In this document: positions 28,383 through 35,374 of the stretch, in pieces | Position numbering within the stretch: the first letter of the stretch is position 1 | Layout: every line of letters starts with the position of its first letter | IMG/VR virus record: IMGVR_UViG_3300044695_001704 | Span: 1-37,829 of that record | DNA from: a virus | Length of the DNA: 37,829 nt | Direction: 5' to 3' (one strand) | Translations under genes and position numbers: made by a program | Notes under the pieces: generated by a model | Told to the model about the DNA's origin: nothing | The model's input: the letters and a program-made list of their open reading frames with translations, nothing else | Database searches by the model: none

Positions 28383-29060
28383 ATGAAAACTTGTAAAAAA
28401 TGTAATATAGAAAAGCATTTAGATTTATTTTATAAAGCTAAAAGCAATAAAGATGGTTATAACAACGTTTGCGCTGATTGTGTTAAAGAAAAAGTTAATA
28501 AGTATAGATTAGATAACATTGAAGCTATTACTGAAAAAAAAGCTCAATATTATAAAAAAAATACTGAAAGATTAAATGCTAAAAGCAAAGCATGGTATGA
28601 GAAAAATAAAGATCATGCTTTGCAATTATCTAAGATTTGGCAACAAAACAATCCAGAAAAAAGAACTGAAATACAAAAGAAATATTACTTAAATGGCGGT
28701 AAAGAAAAAAAACTAGAATGGCATGAAAAAAATAAAGATAAAAGAAGTCTTTATTACAAAGAATATAGAAAAAATAACATAAATGATATTAGAAGAAATA
28801 ACAGTAAATATCAAAAACAAAACCCAAAAAAAGGGTTGCATAGATGCAGATTAAGACAAATGCAAAAATTAAATGCAACTCCTTTGTGGGCTGATTTAAA
28901 TGAGATAAAAGAAATATATAAAAATTGTCCGAAAGGAATGCATGTTGATCATATCATTCCAATTAAAGGAGAATTAGTATGTGGACTCCATGTTATTAAC
29001 AATCTTCAATATTTAACAGCTTCTGATAATTTATCAAAAGGCAATAAATTTACAACATAA
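28383..29060 (+). CDS. HNH endonuclease with N-terminal zinc-binding CxxC pairs
   Basis: This is a 225-residue protein. C4/C7 and C30/C33 (CKKCN ... CADCV) bind zinc. A lysine-rich helical linker with repeated KKNxE-type segments follows. The C-terminal HNH core begins near residue 187 (MHVDHIIPIKGELVCGLHVI, then NLQYLTASDNLSKGNK). It is more AT-rich than its neighbours and lies between two recombination genes with its own promoter-like element, consistent with an inserted free-standing homing endonuclease. A structural or packaging role is unlikely here. Confidence 0.85.
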   Translation: MKTCKKCNIEKHLDLFYKAKSNKDGYNNVCADCVKEKVNKYRLDNIEAITEKKAQYYKKNTERLNAKSKAWYEKNKDHALQLSKIWQQNNPEKRTEIQKKYYLNGGKEKKLEWHEKNKDKRSLYYKEYRKNNINDIRRNNSKYQKQNPKKGLHRCRLRQMQKLNATPLWADLNEIKEIYKNCPKGMHVDHIIPIKGELVCGLHVINNLQYLTASDNLSKGNKFTT

Positions 29061-29968: not shown

Positions 29969-30832
29969 ATGGAACAACAACGTACAGAAGAATGGTTTAA
30001 AAAAAGAAATGGTCGTGTAACTGGAAGTAATGTCGGTGCAATTCTAGGATTTTCACCATTCATGAAGCCAGAAGATGTTATGCGTAATATGGTGCGTCAA
30101 TATCATGGCTACCCAAGTGAGTTTACCGGTAATGTTGCGACTAGCTATGGAACGTATAACGAACCCAATGCTTTAGCTGATTACGAATTGAAGTTTAATA
30201 CAAAAGTCGTAGAAACTGGTTTTCATACTTTTGAAGATTGGCTTGGAGCATCACCAGACGGTTTGATTGGGGACAATTTATTGATAGAGATTAAATGCCC
30301 ATATGGGTTGCGTGACAAGAACCCACCAGAATTTAAAAGCATAGACTACCAAACGCATTACTGGTTACAGATACAAATCCAATTATTTGTTACTGGTCGC
30401 CAATGGTGTCATTTTTACCAATGGTCTGCACACGGTTACATGCTTGAAACAGTGCAATTTAATCCATTAGCTATTGAAGAATATTTACCAAAATTAAAAG
30501 ACTTCTACAATGAATATCTTGTTGAGCGTGAACTACCGCAGGCAAAAAAGTATCTTGAAGAAAAACGCCAACAAGTTAGGTGCGAAGGACAAGTTGATCG
30601 CTATTTAATGTTAGCAGAGCAAATAAAAGAGCTTGAAGCAGAAAAGAAAAGATTGTTGGATGAAATAGTTAAGTTAGCAGATGGTAAGGATAGTGAAATT
30701 AATGGTCACAAACTAACACAAGTACACCGTGAAGGCGCTATATCCTACGCTAAAGCCATAAAAGAGCTAATGCCTGATGCAGACCTAACTAAATACCAGT
30801 CTGCTCCTAGTAGTTATTGGAGATTGACATGA
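29969..30832 (+). CDS. YqaJ/lambda-Exo-type recombination exonuclease
   Basis: This is a 287-residue protein. RTEEWFKKRNGRVTGSNVGA starts the YqaJ fold. E65 in GTYNEPNALA, D97 in GASPDG and E107-x-K109 in LIEIKC form the PD-(D/E)xK active site, and the motif YWLQIQIQLFVTG follows. A C-terminal coiled coil (LAEQIKELEAEKKRLLDEIV) probably assembles the ring. It resects DNA ends to give 3' strands for the Sak4-like protein. Its stop overlaps the ATG of the PP-loop gene (ATGA), linking the recombination set to the odd cassette that follows. Confidence 0.9.
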   Translation: MEQQRTEEWFKKRNGRVTGSNVGAILGFSPFMKPEDVMRNMVRQYHGYPSEFTGNVATSYGTYNEPNALADYELKFNTKVVETGFHTFEDWLGASPDGLIGDNLLIEIKCPYGLRDKNPPEFKSIDYQTHYWLQIQIQLFVTGRQWCHFYQWSAHGYMLETVQFNPLAIEEYLPKLKDFYNEYLVERELPQAKKYLEEKRQQVRCEGQVDRYLMLAEQIKELEAEKKRLLDEIVKLADGKDSEINGHKLTQVHREGAISYAKAIKELMPDADLTKYQSAPSSYWRLT

Positions 30833-32130
30833 GAACTTATAACAGAAATAAGAATGTTTGGGATGCAGGCGTAGAAAGATTAGATTTTATATTTAATAAT
30901 TTTGAAAGAATATATATTTCATTTTCAGGTGGCAAAGATTCTGGAGTAATGCTTAATTTTGTTTTGAAATATATGAGGGAAAAAGGAATAACAAAAAAAA
31001 TAGGTATTCAAATTTTAGACAATGAAGCAAATTATGAATTGTCTGTAGAGTTTATGCACAGAATACTTGATTCAAATAGAGATTTGCTTGAAATTTATTG
31101 GTGTTGTTTGCCAATAACGCTTCCTTGCACAATAAGTTCGTATGCAGTTGAATGGCAATGCTGGGGTAATAGAGATAAAGAAAGATGGATACGTCCTATG
31201 CCAAAACAAGATTACATTGTTAATTTTGAAAATCATAATTTTCCATTTTTTGAAGAAGATATGCCATACGATAAATTCTGGGATGGATTTTCAGAATGGT
31301 ATTCACAAGGCAAAACTTGCGCAAATTTAATTGGAATTAGAACTGTTGAAAGTTTAAACAGGTTTAGAGCAATTATGAATCAACGCAAGGAAACATTAGG
31401 CGGTCAAATGTGGACAAAAAAGAATACTGAACATTCTTATAATTGTTACCCCATTTATGATTGGAGAACAGAAGATGTTTGGACGGCTAATTATATATAT
31501 GATTGGGATTACAACAAACTTTACGATATTTTTTATAAAGCAGGTATTCCAGTTCATAGAATGAGGGTTGCGTCTCCATTTATGTCTGAGTCTAAATCTA
31601 GTTTAGGCTTGTATCGAGTTATTGATCCTCATACATGGGCTAAATTATGTGCCAGAGTACAAGGTGCTAATTTTATAGCAACTTATGGAAAACAACTTAA
31701 TTACAATACTTTTAAACTTCCAGAAGGCCATACATGGAAATCATTTGTTAAATTTTTATTAGCAACTTTACCGGAGGAAGTTTCTATAAATTTTAAAATG
31801 CGGTTTGTTCAGTCTATAAAATACTGGGGTAGAGTTGGGCAAACCGTATCAGACAGCACTTTAAAACAACTAAGAGAAAGTAACCGTATAAAGATAAAAG
31901 AAAACGGATTAACTCCTCATGGAAGAAAAGACAAAATTAGAGTGATAATTAAAAAATACCCAGACCATACTGATGATATAAGAAATAATAATAGTGAAAT
32001 TGCGTCATGGAAACGATTTGCAATTACTATTTTAAAAAATGACCATACCTGTAAATACATGGGATTTGCTCCAACAAAAGAACAAACATTGAGACAACGT
32101 AATATTATGGAAAAATATAAAAAATTATGA
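30829..32130 (+). CDS. IbrA-like PP-loop ATPase / PAPS-reductase fold with DUF3440
   Basis: This is a 433-residue protein from ATG 30829; GGAG lies about seven bases upstream, and ATG 30817 is inside the exonuclease. SFSGGKDSG (SGGKDS 33-38) is the PP-loop that binds ATP in PAPS reductase/ATP-pyrophosphatase enzymes. CCLPITLPCTISSYAVEWQC and DWRTEDVWTANYIYDWDYN are family segments, and RMRVASPFMSESKSSLGLYR begins the DUF3440-type region. IbrA pairs with ParB-like IbrB in mobile elements; their reaction is unproven. Here an ectC gene separates them. The C-terminal RFAITILKNDHTCKYMGF recurs in a small downstream protein. Confidence 0.85.
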   Translation: MRTYNRNKNVWDAGVERLDFIFNNFERIYISFSGGKDSGVMLNFVLKYMREKGITKKIGIQILDNEANYELSVEFMHRILDSNRDLLEIYWCCLPITLPCTISSYAVEWQCWGNRDKERWIRPMPKQDYIVNFENHNFPFFEEDMPYDKFWDGFSEWYSQGKTCANLIGIRTVESLNRFRAIMNQRKETLGGQMWTKKNTEHSYNCYPIYDWRTEDVWTANYIYDWDYNKLYDIFYKAGIPVHRMRVASPFMSESKSSLGLYRVIDPHTWAKLCARVQGANFIATYGKQLNYNTFKLPEGHTWKSFVKFLLATLPEEVSINFKMRFVQSIKYWGRVGQTVSDSTLKQLRESNRIKIKENGLTPHGRKDKIRVIIKKYPDHTDDIRNNNSEIASWKRFAITILKNDHTCKYMGFAPTKEQTLRQRNIMEKYKKL

Positions 32131-32510
32131 AAATAATTAAATTGCATGAATTAAAAGGAACAGAAAGAGAAGTTAAATGCCCAAAAGGAGGTTTTTTAAG
32201 CAGAAGGTTTTTGCTTGAAAAAGACAATATGGGGTTTTCTGTAACAAATACAATAATACCTCCAAATGGAGAGCAAAATTGGCATTATAAAAATCATCTT
32301 GAAGCTTGTTATTGCATAAAAGGACATGGGTGTATTACAAATAAAAATACAGGAGAAAAGCATAGGATATTGCCTGGCACAATGTACGTTCTTGATAACA
32401 ATGATCCGCATTCATTTATAGCTTTTTCTACAGTAGAGCTGCTATGCGTATTTAACCCTCCATTAACAGGACTTGAAGTCCACAATAAGGATAATTCATA
32501 TGACATTTAA
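32127..32510 (+). CDS. ectC: Ectoine synthase homologue (EctC), lone copy in a phage
   Basis: This is a 127-residue cupin matching EctC over its whole length: ELKGTEREV near the start, MGFSVTNTIIPP, WHYKNHLEACYCIKGHG, PGTMYVLDNNDPHSF and CVFNPPLTGLEVHN. EctC cyclises N-gamma-acetyl-diaminobutyrate to ectoine. E59, Y87 and H95 align with the iron ligands reported for EctC, and E117/H119 with other active-site residues (from memory), so it looks functional. No ectA or ectB is present; solitary EctC proteins may act on other substrates. It overlaps both the IbrA- and IbrB-like genes, hence is part of that unit. Confidence 0.85.
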   Translation: MKIIKLHELKGTEREVKCPKGGFLSRRFLLEKDNMGFSVTNTIIPPNGEQNWHYKNHLEACYCIKGHGCITNKNTGEKHRILPGTMYVLDNNDPHSFIAFSTVELLCVFNPPLTGLEVHNKDNSYDI

Positions 32511-33027
32511 ATCTCCAGTTTATAACGTACTTTGCGTTCCATTTAGCCAAGTAACTGCAAATGATTACAACCCTAATGCAGTTGCTCCACCTGAAATGGC
32601 TTTATTAGAAACATCAATATGGGAAGATGGATATACGCAGCCAATTGTTACTTATTATGATGATACAAAAGACATTTACATTGTAGTAGATGGTTTTCAC
32701 CGCTATTTAACAATGAAAAATAGTGAGCGCATAAGAGAGCGTGAAAATAACATGCTGCCAATTGTTGTAATTAAAAAAGAACTTGGCGACAGAATGGCAT
32801 CTACTATCAGACATAACAGAGCTAGAGGATCTCATAATATTGAATTAATGAGTACTATAGTTTCTGAGCTTGTTGAAATGGGGAAAGGAGATTTCTGGAT
32901 ATGTAAACATATTGGAATGAGCGTTGATGAGCTATTAAGATTAAAACAAATAACTGGCGTTGCTGCTTTATTTCAAAATCGTAGTTTTTCTGATAGTTGG
33001 GAAGCAGATGAAGAAGAATGGGCTTAG
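32500..33027 (+). CDS. IbrB-like ParB/sulfiredoxin-fold protein
   Basis: This is a 175-residue protein from ATG 32500. NDYNPN (21-26), EDGYTQPIV, VVDGFHRYL (62-70) and IRHNRARGSHNIELM (103-117) give the complete ParB N-terminal/Srx nucleotide-binding fold. A helical C-terminal part (LVEMGKGDFWICKHIGMS) reads like a DNA-binding HTH and ends in acidic EADEEEW. IbrB-type proteins partner IbrA PP-loop enzymes. Here the ectC gene is inserted between the pair with overlapping ends. A role as a nucleotide-dependent switch or nuclease is possible; no experiment links it to ectoine chemistry. Confidence 0.85.
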   Translation: MTFKSPVYNVLCVPFSQVTANDYNPNAVAPPEMALLETSIWEDGYTQPIVTYYDDTKDIYIVVDGFHRYLTMKNSERIRERENNMLPIVVIKKELGDRMASTIRHNRARGSHNIELMSTIVSELVEMGKGDFWICKHIGMSVDELLRLKQITGVAALFQNRSFSDSWEADEEEWA

Positions 33028-33391
33028 GATTTATCATCCTTGGTGGCTATGGGAGTGCTATAAAGCAGGATTTTATAGCACTATTCCACCTGATGGAAAA
33101 ACAAAAGAACAGTGCAAAGAAGAATATGCAATTTTTTTATCAGATATTGAGTTGTTTAATTATTCAATGGATGAAGTAATAAAAACATGGAAATATTCTT
33201 CAGAGCATTTTTTATCTAATCCAAGTATAAATAGAATAGCTTGGCTTGGGCAGTCATCAATGTGTTTGGCAAATAAAATACCAAGCACATTTAAAAGTGG
33301 CTTCTTTTTATTAAATGATTATCAAAAAATAGAAGCAAACAATGCAGCAAGGATAAAATTAAATGATTGGGAAAATACAAGATTATATTAA
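33008..33391 (+). CDS. IbrA/IbrB-associated protein (HPWWLWECYKAGFY)
   Basis: This is a 127-residue protein from ATG 33008: RIYHPWWLWECYKAGFYSTI, PPDGKTKEQCKEEYAIFLSD, then FLSNPSINRIAWLGQSSMCL. From memory, proteins with WECxxAGFY ... SNxxINRxAWLGQAxxC follow IbrA/IbrB genes in other phages, so it appears to be a standing partner of this system. No catalytic motif is known; the conserved aromatic and cysteine residues suggest a binding function. It overlaps the IbrB-like gene by 20 bases and the next gene by 29 bases. Confidence 0.75.
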   Translation: MKKNGLRIYHPWWLWECYKAGFYSTIPPDGKTKEQCKEEYAIFLSDIELFNYSMDEVIKTWKYSSEHFLSNPSINRIAWLGQSSMCLANKIPSTFKSGFFLLNDYQKIEANNAARIKLNDWENTRLY

Positions 33392-33590
33392 TAAATGGAA
33401 AGAACAGGGTTATCCAATAGATATTCCTGATGAAGTTCCTGTTGAATTAATGAAAAATAACTTAGCTCCATCATACAAAGCTATAGCAATAGCTATTTTA
33501 AAAAACGATCATGGTTTATTAACGCTTGGCAATACAGCAAAGCCATCAAAATGGTATTCTTTTTTTAAACGTATTGAACTAAGTAATTAA
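33363..33590 (+). CDS. Small DUF3440-tail-like protein closing the IbrA/ectC cassette
   Basis: This is a 75-residue protein: IQDYINKWKEQGYPIDIPDE, then YKAIAIAILKNDHGLLTLGN and KPSKWYSFFKRIE. The piece AIAIAILKNDHGLLTLG resembles the C-terminus of the IbrA-like protein (FAITILKNDHTCKYMG), so the domain exists both fused and free in the same cassette. Such small proteins accompany IbrA homologues in phages, from memory. It ends exactly where the helicase ATG begins, so the cassette is co-translated with the replication genes on both sides. Confidence 0.75.
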   Translation: MIGKIQDYINKWKEQGYPIDIPDEVPVELMKNNLAPSYKAIAIAILKNDHGLLTLGNTAKPSKWYSFFKRIELSN

Positions 33591-35374
33591 TGATTATGAA
33601 ACTCCGCCCCTACCAACAACAAGCGCATGATGCTGCTATAGACTGGATAAAGAAATGTACTGACCCATGCGTATTAGAATTGCCAACAGGGAGTGGCAAA
33701 TCTTTAATTGTTGCAGCAATAGCCAACACATTGCACCAAGTTAGTGGTGGAAAGCATATATTATGCCTTGTACCATCAAAAGAGCTGTTAGAACAAAATG
33801 CAGAAAAATACCGAGATACTGGCAATGAATGTAGCTTGTTTAGCGCCAGCGTTGGGGAAACGTGTTTAAAACATCCAGTTGTTTTTGGCACACCTGTTAG
33901 CGTCAAGAATAAAATACACAGATTTGGTTCTAAATTTTGTGCTGTTGTATTAGATGAAGCGCATCGCATAACACCAACGGTAAAAAGTATTATTGAATCT
34001 TTAGTTTCCTGTAATCCTAATCTGCGTGTGATAGGTCTTTCAGCTACTCCATACAGGCTTGGTGATGGATATATATATAGAATGGATGAGAATGGCAATG
34101 CTTATGGAAATGATAAAACTAAGAACCCTTATTTTACTGCAAGAGTATTTACTGTTTATGCCAGAGATTTAATACAGCAAGGATACTTAACAAAACCTGT
34201 CATTGGTGCAATTAATTCAGGTCATTATGAAACCCTGGATATGCAACTTAATAGCATGGGTAAGTTTGCAAAAGCAGATGTTGATAGAGCTTATCATGGT
34301 CAAGGAAGGCTCACAAGTGCGATTGTAGGTGATATTGTTTCGCAAGCAGTAGATAGACAAGGTGTAATGATTTTCTCTGCGACAGTACAACATGCTCACG
34401 AGGTTATGCAGTCTTTACCACCAAGTTTATCTTGCATAGTTACAGGAGAAACACCTAAGTTGGAACGTGAACAAATACTGCGAAAATTCAAAGCTAGGCA
34501 ATTAAAATATTTAGTTAATGTTTCTGTGCTTTGTGTTGGCTTTGACTGTGTACACGTTGATTTAATAGCTATTTTAAGAGCTACAGAGTCAGTTAGTTTG
34601 CTCCAACAAATAATCGGCAGAGGATTGCGTATTGATAACAATAAAGATGATTGTTTGATACTGGATTATGCTGAAAATATTAGTCGTCATTGTCCTGATG
34701 GTGACTTATTTAATCCTGAGATAGAAGCATCAGGTGATTACGGAGCTGGTGAACCAATCAAAGCTAGATGCCCACAGTGCAATGCTAATAATGAATTTGC
34801 GCCAGTGCTTAATGAAGCAAAGCATGAAGTTGATGTTAATGGTTATTTTATTGATCTTGAAGGCATACGATTAGAAACAGAATATGGAGAGATGCCAGCG
34901 CATCATGGAAGAAGATGCTTTGGTGAGGTATTTAATAAAACTATTAGAAAACTTGTTAGATGTGATTATCGTTGGACGTTTAAACCATGCCCACATTGTG
35001 AAGAAGAAAATGATATTGCTGCACGTTATTGTTGCAGTTGCAAGGGAGAACTAATTGACCCAAATAGTAAGTTAGTAGCAGACTTCCAAATGAAAAAGAA
35101 AGACCCGACGCAAATCCAAACAGATAAGGTTGTTGCAATGCGAGCAACTCCCACACTAAGCAAAGCAGGGAACGAGTGCATAAGAGTTGATTTTATAACT
35201 GAATATAGATCATTTCCTGTTTGGTTTACGATGAAAATGCAGAGTAGCTATGATGCATTTATGAAGTTTACAGATAATGGTTTTACAACACCAAATACCA
35301 TCACATATAAAAAGAGTGGTGATTTCTTTAAAATTTACGACTACAACAGGACAGCTGATGAAGTTCCACAATGA
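33590..35374 (+). CDS. SF2 DEAD/DEAH-box helicase with zinc-binding C-terminus
   Basis: This is a 594-residue helicase. Q-type start LRPYQQQAHDA, Walker A PTGSGKS (32-38), DEAH (122-125), SATPYR (151-156) and motif VI QIIGRGLR (340-347) are all present. The C-terminal part carries C394/C397 and C467/C470/C481 or 482/C484, likely zinc ribbons contacting DNA. Relatives (RadD/RecQ-like SF2 proteins in phages) act in replication or recombination. ATG 33590 is used; 33596 (second Met) is possible. It overlaps the nuclease gene that follows. Confidence 0.9.
   Translation: MIMKLRPYQQQAHDAAIDWIKKCTDPCVLELPTGSGKSLIVAAIANTLHQVSGGKHILCLVPSKELLEQNAEKYRDTGNECSLFSASVGETCLKHPVVFGTPVSVKNKIHRFGSKFCAVVLDEAHRITPTVKSIIESLVSCNPNLRVIGLSATPYRLGDGYIYRMDENGNAYGNDKTKNPYFTARVFTVYARDLIQQGYLTKPVIGAINSGHYETLDMQLNSMGKFAKADVDRAYHGQGRLTSAIVGDIVSQAVDRQGVMIFSATVQHAHEVMQSLPPSLSCIVTGETPKLEREQILRKFKARQLKYLVNVSVLCVGFDCVHVDLIAILRATESVSLLQQIIGRGLRIDNNKDDCLILDYAENISRHCPDGDLFNPEIEASGDYGAGEPIKARCPQCNANNEFAPVLNEAKHEVDVNGYFIDLEGIRLETEYGEMPAHHGRRCFGEVFNKTIRKLVRCDYRWTFKPCPHCEEENDIAARYCCSCKGELIDPNSKLVADFQMKKKDPTQIQTDKVVAMRATPTLSKAGNECIRVDFITEYRSFPVWFTMKMQSSYDAFMKFTDNGFTTPNTITYKKSGDFFKIYDYNRTADEVPQ

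Follow-up and report, generated by a model that had tools for sequence, protein, structure and literature searches.

The 37,829-base IMG/VR virus record IMGVR_UViG_3300044695_001704, analysed here over its whole length (the window), carries a cassette of five genes, IbrA, EctC, IbrB, p127 and p75, in head-to-tail overlap at positions 30829-33590, within a phage recombination operon. All five lie on the plus strand, with a YqaJ-type exonuclease gene (29969-30832) before them and a superfamily 2 (SF2) helicase gene (33590-35374) after them on the same strand; this arrangement, which the original prediction had read from the sequence alone, is confirmed by the open reading frames and by family matches. 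IbrA (30829-32130) is a PP-loop ATPase of the PAPS (3'-phosphoadenosine-5'-phosphosulfate)-reductase family (PF01507) with an SGGKDS motif, the Cys93 and Cys408 found in nearly all IbrAs and the Cys92/100/111/274 set characteristic of the EctC-linked clade, joined to a DUF3440 domain (PF11922; E = 5e-60, 202.8 bits against a cut-off of 25). The EctC-type cupin (32127-32510), which overlaps IbrA by 4 nucleotides, matches PF06339 (Ectoine_synth; E = 2e-44, 151 bits against a cut-off of 27) and NCBI NF009806 (153.6 bits, cut-off 128), and solved EctC structures can be aligned to it over nearly its full length. IbrB (32500-33027; 11-nucleotide overlap with EctC) has a DGFHR motif and matches the ParB-like family PHROG 2159 (E = 2.5e-74); its predicted architecture is a nucleoside triphosphate (NTP)-binding domain of the ParB/sulfiredoxin fold followed by a KorB-like helix-turn-helix (HTH).

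The two small proteins are of different kinds. p127 (33008-33391; 20-nucleotide overlap with IbrB) has 127 residues and an all-helical AlphaFold2 (AF2) model with a predicted local distance difference test score (pLDDT) of 95.9; it belongs to no known family, with no match in Pfam, PHROG or PDB sequences and no convincing match among PDB folds. p75 (33363-33590; 29-nucleotide overlap with p127), at 75 residues, duplicates the C-terminal part of IbrA's DUF3440 domain in a protein of its own (E = 5e-4; 54 bits with an IbrA hidden Markov model). Promoter-like sites in the region are in no excess over shuffled sequence.

Recurrence of the cassette in phages and prophages

Scans of IMG/VR directed at EctC, at IbrA and at the IbrA of two-gene pairs, together with one scan of bacterial genomes and two cultured phages, yielded 193 non-redundant loci, a total that includes close relatives, about ten of them from the window's own lineage. 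IbrA, EctC and IbrB occur together in 128 of these loci, so the presence of EctC next to IbrA/IbrB in other genomes, on which the original prediction depended, is borne out; all five genes are present in 119 of the 128, and the phages that carry them include many with no relation to one another. The five-gene loci fall into six gene orders, 92 having IbrA-EctC-IbrB-p127-p75 (three of them with an inserted EctD-like gene) and the rest being permuted, and the module genes share one strand in every locus checked for strand. Because the five genes recur in 119 loci and in six orders, chance adjacency is rejected as an explanation of the neighbourhood. Most of the nine EctC, IbrA and IbrB loci without the full set are cut by a contig end, and the scan directed at IbrA alone had EctC in every non-redundant locus except one (L127, described below). 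The five-gene module is also present in the cultured phages Mycobacterium phage Gaia (gp103-107) and Pseudoalteromonas phage XCL1123 (QGJ84328-84331); in the latter (L015 8930-9485, MN313256.1) the annotated start of p127 is late and p75 is unannotated, tblastn placing it at L015 9282-9485.

In the first 144 loci EctC, p127 and p75 were very nearly always present or absent together, a rule that was later broken: six loci have p127 and p75 but no EctC, and three intact EctC loci (L055, L058 and L250) have neither. Given these six loci, p127 and p75 either predate EctC or do not depend on it.

EctC and IbrB form one open frame in 35 loci, including Gaia gp104, which GenBank labels 'ectoine synthase/ParB multidomain protein', and the fused forms are scattered over several parts of the EctC tree. 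The AF2 model of IbrB matches ParB/Noc N-domains with Z of about 10 (up to 11) at 2 Å over 85 residues and sulfiredoxin with Z of 9.8, and residues 98-154 match the operator-binding domain of KorB (Z of 7.8, 1.8 Å, 57 residues). GERRxRA is the cytidine triphosphate (CTP)-binding motif of ParB-type CTPases; the alignment of IbrBs does not contain it and has an invariant DGxHR instead, the DGFHR of IbrB aligning with the DGxHR of SerK and SbnI. On the strength of the model fold and of this alignment, IbrB is presumably an NTP-using, DNA-binding protein.

Among the commonest true neighbours of the module is the helicase cluster (26 of 115 loci, median distance 15 nucleotides); in one locus (L007 5942-8100) the helicase and YqaJ genes are partly duplicated in inverted orientation, which may reflect an assembly chimera. 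Two sets of findings were set aside from the module: the EctC of MT835761, a human faecal 'phage', adjoins an aminotransferase and resembles bacterial ectoine DNA, and the EctCs and IbrAs found in a plasmid search are of other types than those of the phage module. In four phages that are divergent from one another (L051 6509-6841, L033 6666-6980, L149 1391-1663, and L014 6890-7264, which is Gaia gp105) the module is interrupted, at different places, by the gene of a related small protein whose start is GIY-YIG-like (YKITYPNGKIYIGQD) and which may be a homing element or a functional nuclease. The window itself has an HNH-type endonuclease gene at 28383-29060, flanked by genes for a Sak4-like annealing protein and a single-strand binding protein.

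Active site of phage EctC and its partner enzymes

In a survey of about 113 phage EctCs, numbered as in the P. lautus enzyme, the iron ligands Glu57 and Tyr84 are present in 114 of 114 sequences and His92 in 113 of 114, and Ser23, Arg25, Thr40 and Tyr52 are invariant; retention of the ring-closing active site is well supported. Trp21 is found in 0 of 113 phage EctCs, which have F, G, M or L instead, mostly Phe or Gly. The EctC of the window has Phe at this position and keeps the catalytic and iron residues, and only the EctC of L073 has any Trp in the Trp21 region. Trp21, which is required for full activity on N-gamma-acetyl-diaminobutyrate, makes contact with the substrate in the P. lautus enzyme, where 9.7% activity is left once Ala replaces it (PMC6344544). 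With the ring-closing residues kept and a substrate contact changed, the simplest inference from the alignment is that the substrate of phage EctC differs from the canonical one. In the tree, the phage EctCs stand on one side of a branch with support of 100/99 and the 11 bacterial EctCs tested on the other. Two further candidate markers were dropped: loss of Asn38 is not diagnostic, as bacterial EctCs also have His and Thr there, and Cys59 is not confined to phages, being common to cluster-type orphan EctCs.

T38 and Cys59, which many phage EctCs have, also occur in these orphan EctCs of bacterial biosynthetic clusters; the orphans differ in that Trp is kept, shifted by two positions, and in that they lie beside polyketide synthase (PKS) and carrier-type genes and not beside IbrA/IbrB. 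In such clusters the acid end is likely carrier-bound. On four plasmids (L183, L186, L187 and L190) EctC homologues lie in clusters with PKS, tryptophan-type genes, ketosynthases and a halogenase.

The IbrAs with EctC nearby form a single clade (Shimodaira-Hasegawa-like approximate likelihood ratio of 100 in a quick tree) with its own cysteines: Cys92 in 124 of 127, Cys100 in 127 of 127, Cys111 in 124 of 127 and Cys274 in 127 of 127, where other IbrAs have mostly V/I, T, P and V, respectively. Cys93 and Cys408 are near-universal in IbrAs with and without EctC, and the PP-loop SGGKDS is present in all 184 IbrAs. Judged from these alignments, the cysteines of the EctC clade may form a redox or iron-sulfur site acquired along with the EctC chemistry.

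Putative tailoring enzymes join the module in a few loci. An EctD-like dioxygenase gene lies between IbrA and EctC in L023, L025 and L074, and in L092, an Acidobacteria contig of a metagenome-assembled genome, it follows an EctC-IbrB fusion; when IMG/VR was scanned with the alignment of EctD, the viral loci L023, L025 and L074 came up and no others. The best family of the four proteins is ectoine hydroxylase (E = 8e-51 to 6e-85), their profile matches VsEctD (E = 6.5e-90), and WHSDFETWHxxDGMP of the 17-residue EctD signature is intact in all four, its opening Phe being Trp in three. Two of these loci also encode a methyltransferase related to MycE and demethylmacrocin O-methyltransferase (E = 3e-27): in L074 its gene comes after EctD, and in L023 it makes up the middle of a single frame, with EctC on one side and IbrB on the other. 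Cyclisation, hydroxylation and methylation, probably in this order, are the natural reading of these tailoring genes. The cyclisation that the original prediction proposed thus gains indirect support from the intact catalytic residues and from the EctD-like enzymes in the module.

Pairs of IbrA and IbrB also occur without EctC, in prophages and plasmids. These two-gene pairs resemble the module in IbrA (35-45% identical, with the same PP-loop and Cys93/Cys408) and in IbrB (55-65% identical) and differ from it in having no EctC, in nearly all lacking p127 and p75, and in having no Cys92/100/111/274 set. A GNAT-like protein of about 140 residues is present in 23 of 58 IbrA and IbrB loci without EctC and in 0 of 128 with it, an exclusion given here as counts, since the Fisher test of EctC against GNAT takes no account of relatedness. 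In most cases its gene immediately precedes IbrA or stands between IbrA and IbrB (L096-L099, L101-L108, L114, L115, L117, L200, L207, L210, L213, L218, L220, L233 and L237); in L233, L237 and L218 the protein can be assigned to GNAT with significance, the other loci being assigned through the profile that they share, and in L200 the protein is fused to p75. In L127 (3868-4614), where the module is otherwise typical, the position of EctC between IbrA and IbrB is taken by a 1-Cys-type peroxiredoxin; IbrB, for its part, has the sulfiredoxin fold. Two other neighbourhoods may be mentioned here. In Fusobacterium phage phiFN37 (L018 9754-11039) IbrA/IbrB are near a second ParB-like gene that adjoins queuine tRNA-ribosyltransferase (TGT), a Dpd-like pair. 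Cysteine dioxygenases are a cupin family. The prophage prophiGD21-3 of M. abscessus is reported to have a cysteine-dioxygenase-like and a PAPS-reductase-like gene near each other (its genes 20 and 23; PMC8092301), possibly another pair of a cupin and a PP-loop protein.

A candidate nucleic-acid modification system and its alternatives

That the five genes are one system is well supported by their co-occurrence, the permuted orders, the EctC-IbrB fusions, the single IbrA clade and the co-gained cysteines; the 'one biochemical system' of the original prediction stands firmly on these grounds, to which our analysis adds that p75 duplicates the IbrA C-terminus and that IbrA/IbrB may be joined by EctD, by an O-methyltransferase or, where EctC is missing, by a GNAT-like protein. 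Its chemistry is undescribed and probably consists in the decoration of nucleic acid rather than in the production of ectoine as an osmoprotectant. We hold, with about even confidence, that the cassette is one phage-borne modification system with nucleic acid as its likely target, a target that we infer because of the IbrB fold, the EctC-IbrB fusions and the replication and recombination setting. In the presumptive order of events, IbrB would keep the system on DNA through its ParB/sulfiredoxin-fold NTP-binding domain and KorB-like HTH; IbrA with ATP would activate a carbonyl, or transfer a nitrogen or sulfur group, on the target; and EctC would then close an ectoine-like cyclic amidine on a tethered substrate, not free N-acetyl-diaminobutyrate and most likely a nucleic-acid-borne analogue of it. 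p75, as a spare DUF3440 end, and p127 would be accessory subunits. In some phages the ring would be hydroxylated by the EctD-like dioxygenase and methylated by the MycE-like enzyme, and in loci without EctC the GNAT-like protein would often take its role. As a tentative version of this chemistry, one that we think clearly less probable than the general scheme, IbrA/IbrB might attach to a base a side chain with an amine or acyl group, EctC would close this side chain into an ectoine-like tetrahydropyrimidine ring on the polymer, the EctD-like and MycE-like enzymes could hydroxylate and methylate the ring, and the GNAT-like protein would finish the side chain where EctC is missing.

Several observations weigh against this scheme. 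p127 and p75 are not strictly tied to EctC. The IbrB model has moderate confidence (pLDDT 77.6), and DNA, as opposed to RNA, protein or a small molecule, is suggested as the target by the predicted IbrB fold, the fusion and the setting. The EctD-like proteins fall under the TIGR02408 equivalog cut-off of 336.5 bits, three of them at 173-285 bits. Finally, EctC could still produce ectoine from a substrate supplied by the host.

A role in defence or counter-defence, in which phage DNA would be marked against restriction or rivals attacked, appears possible though doubtful; it is a purpose and not a mechanism and is compatible with modification, so that our confidences in the two overlap, and between modification and the defence or counter-defence also raised by the original prediction the data do not decide. 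The Dnd phosphorothioation and Dpd 7-deazaguanine systems resemble the cassette in coupling a nucleotide-activating or base-exchanging modification enzyme with a ParB-superfamily protein (PMC10853773, PMC12839542). A scan with PADLOC (2023 library) gave weak partial DndC and BrxP matches to IbrA, that to DndC (E = 1e-7) spanning only residues 167-235, about 70 in all, and no match of any kind to EctC, IbrB, p127 or p75. Against such a role, a nuclease or other effector is not a constant member of the module. Neither DndD/E nor TGT was seen among the constant genes, nor DndD/E in any frequent neighbour cluster, no profile search having been aimed at them.

It is rather unlikely that IbrA, IbrB and EctC yield a free ectoine-like signal, cofactor or precursor, with the ParB part regulating or channelling the route, even though EctC and EctD of the known pathway both use small molecules and the plasmid-cluster relatives of EctC, which share T38/Cys59 with phage EctC, lie beside PKS, acyl-CoA dehydrogenase and carrier-protein genes. 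The fusion of EctC to a protein with a predicted KorB-like DNA-binding domain argues against this route, as do the genomic setting of DNA replication and recombination and the fact that substrate-making enzymes were not found in 37 module-bearing records.

Cupin and HTH together are a common regulator design, and EctC could accordingly be the ligand-sensing cupin of a DNA-binding regulator, EctC-IbrB, with IbrA/IbrB affecting gene expression; the IbrB model does match KorB and Noc, and some phage annotations name IbrB a co-activator of prophage gene expression. We consider this decidedly unlikely: the whole iron-binding and catalytic set is kept in more than 110 divergent EctCs, beyond the needs of a sensor, EctD and a methyltransferase join the module, and the PP-loop of IbrA is invariant.

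The canonical ectoine pathway, EctABC(D), resembles the module in the EctC fold, the iron and catalytic residues and the EctD-like hydroxylase of four loci, and differs in that the module has no EctA or EctB that we could find, has lost Trp21, has EctC linked or fused to IbrA/IbrB and places EctC on a separate branch. An IMG/VR scan with canonical EctC gave only three viral contigs, each of which has IbrA next to its EctC, and therefore no classical ectoine synthase is seen in IMG/VR at this sensitivity; nearly every viral EctC on a long-enough contig adjoins IbrA. The least probable reading is that phage-made ectoine (and hydroxyectoine) guards the host against salt, an interpretation given to viral ectoine synthase or ectoine-related genes in two viromics papers (PMC13079714, PMC13288924). 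It has on its side that EctC on its own is able to form ectoine when the host is suitable (PMC5924519) and that EctD-like genes lie in the module of four loci, and runs counter to the absence of EctA (TIGR02406) and EctB-type aminotransferase (PF00202) from all 37 records with the module that were searched, of which many are incomplete, to the loss of Trp21 throughout phage EctCs, to the fusion with IbrB and near-obligate linkage to IbrA, and to the failure of the canonical-EctC scan to give any other kind of EctC.

Meaning for IbrA/IbrB pairs and viral ectoine synthases

The original prediction knew of no description of an IbrA, EctC and IbrB trio, and we found no published one in the open-licence literature, the module of Gaia and XCL1123 being annotated only. 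The literature names orphan EctC proteins as an open problem (PMC5924519, PMC6344544), and the module joins this puzzle to a second one, the chemistry of the IbrA/IbrB pairs that are widespread in prophages and plasmids. Cultured phages carry it, Gaia in M. smegmatis and XCL1123 in Pseudoalteromonas. The data speak against reading viral EctC as an osmolyte gene, and the auxiliary metabolic genes reported from viruses as 'ectoine synthase', and some of those reported as 'PAPS reductase/cysH', may be neither.

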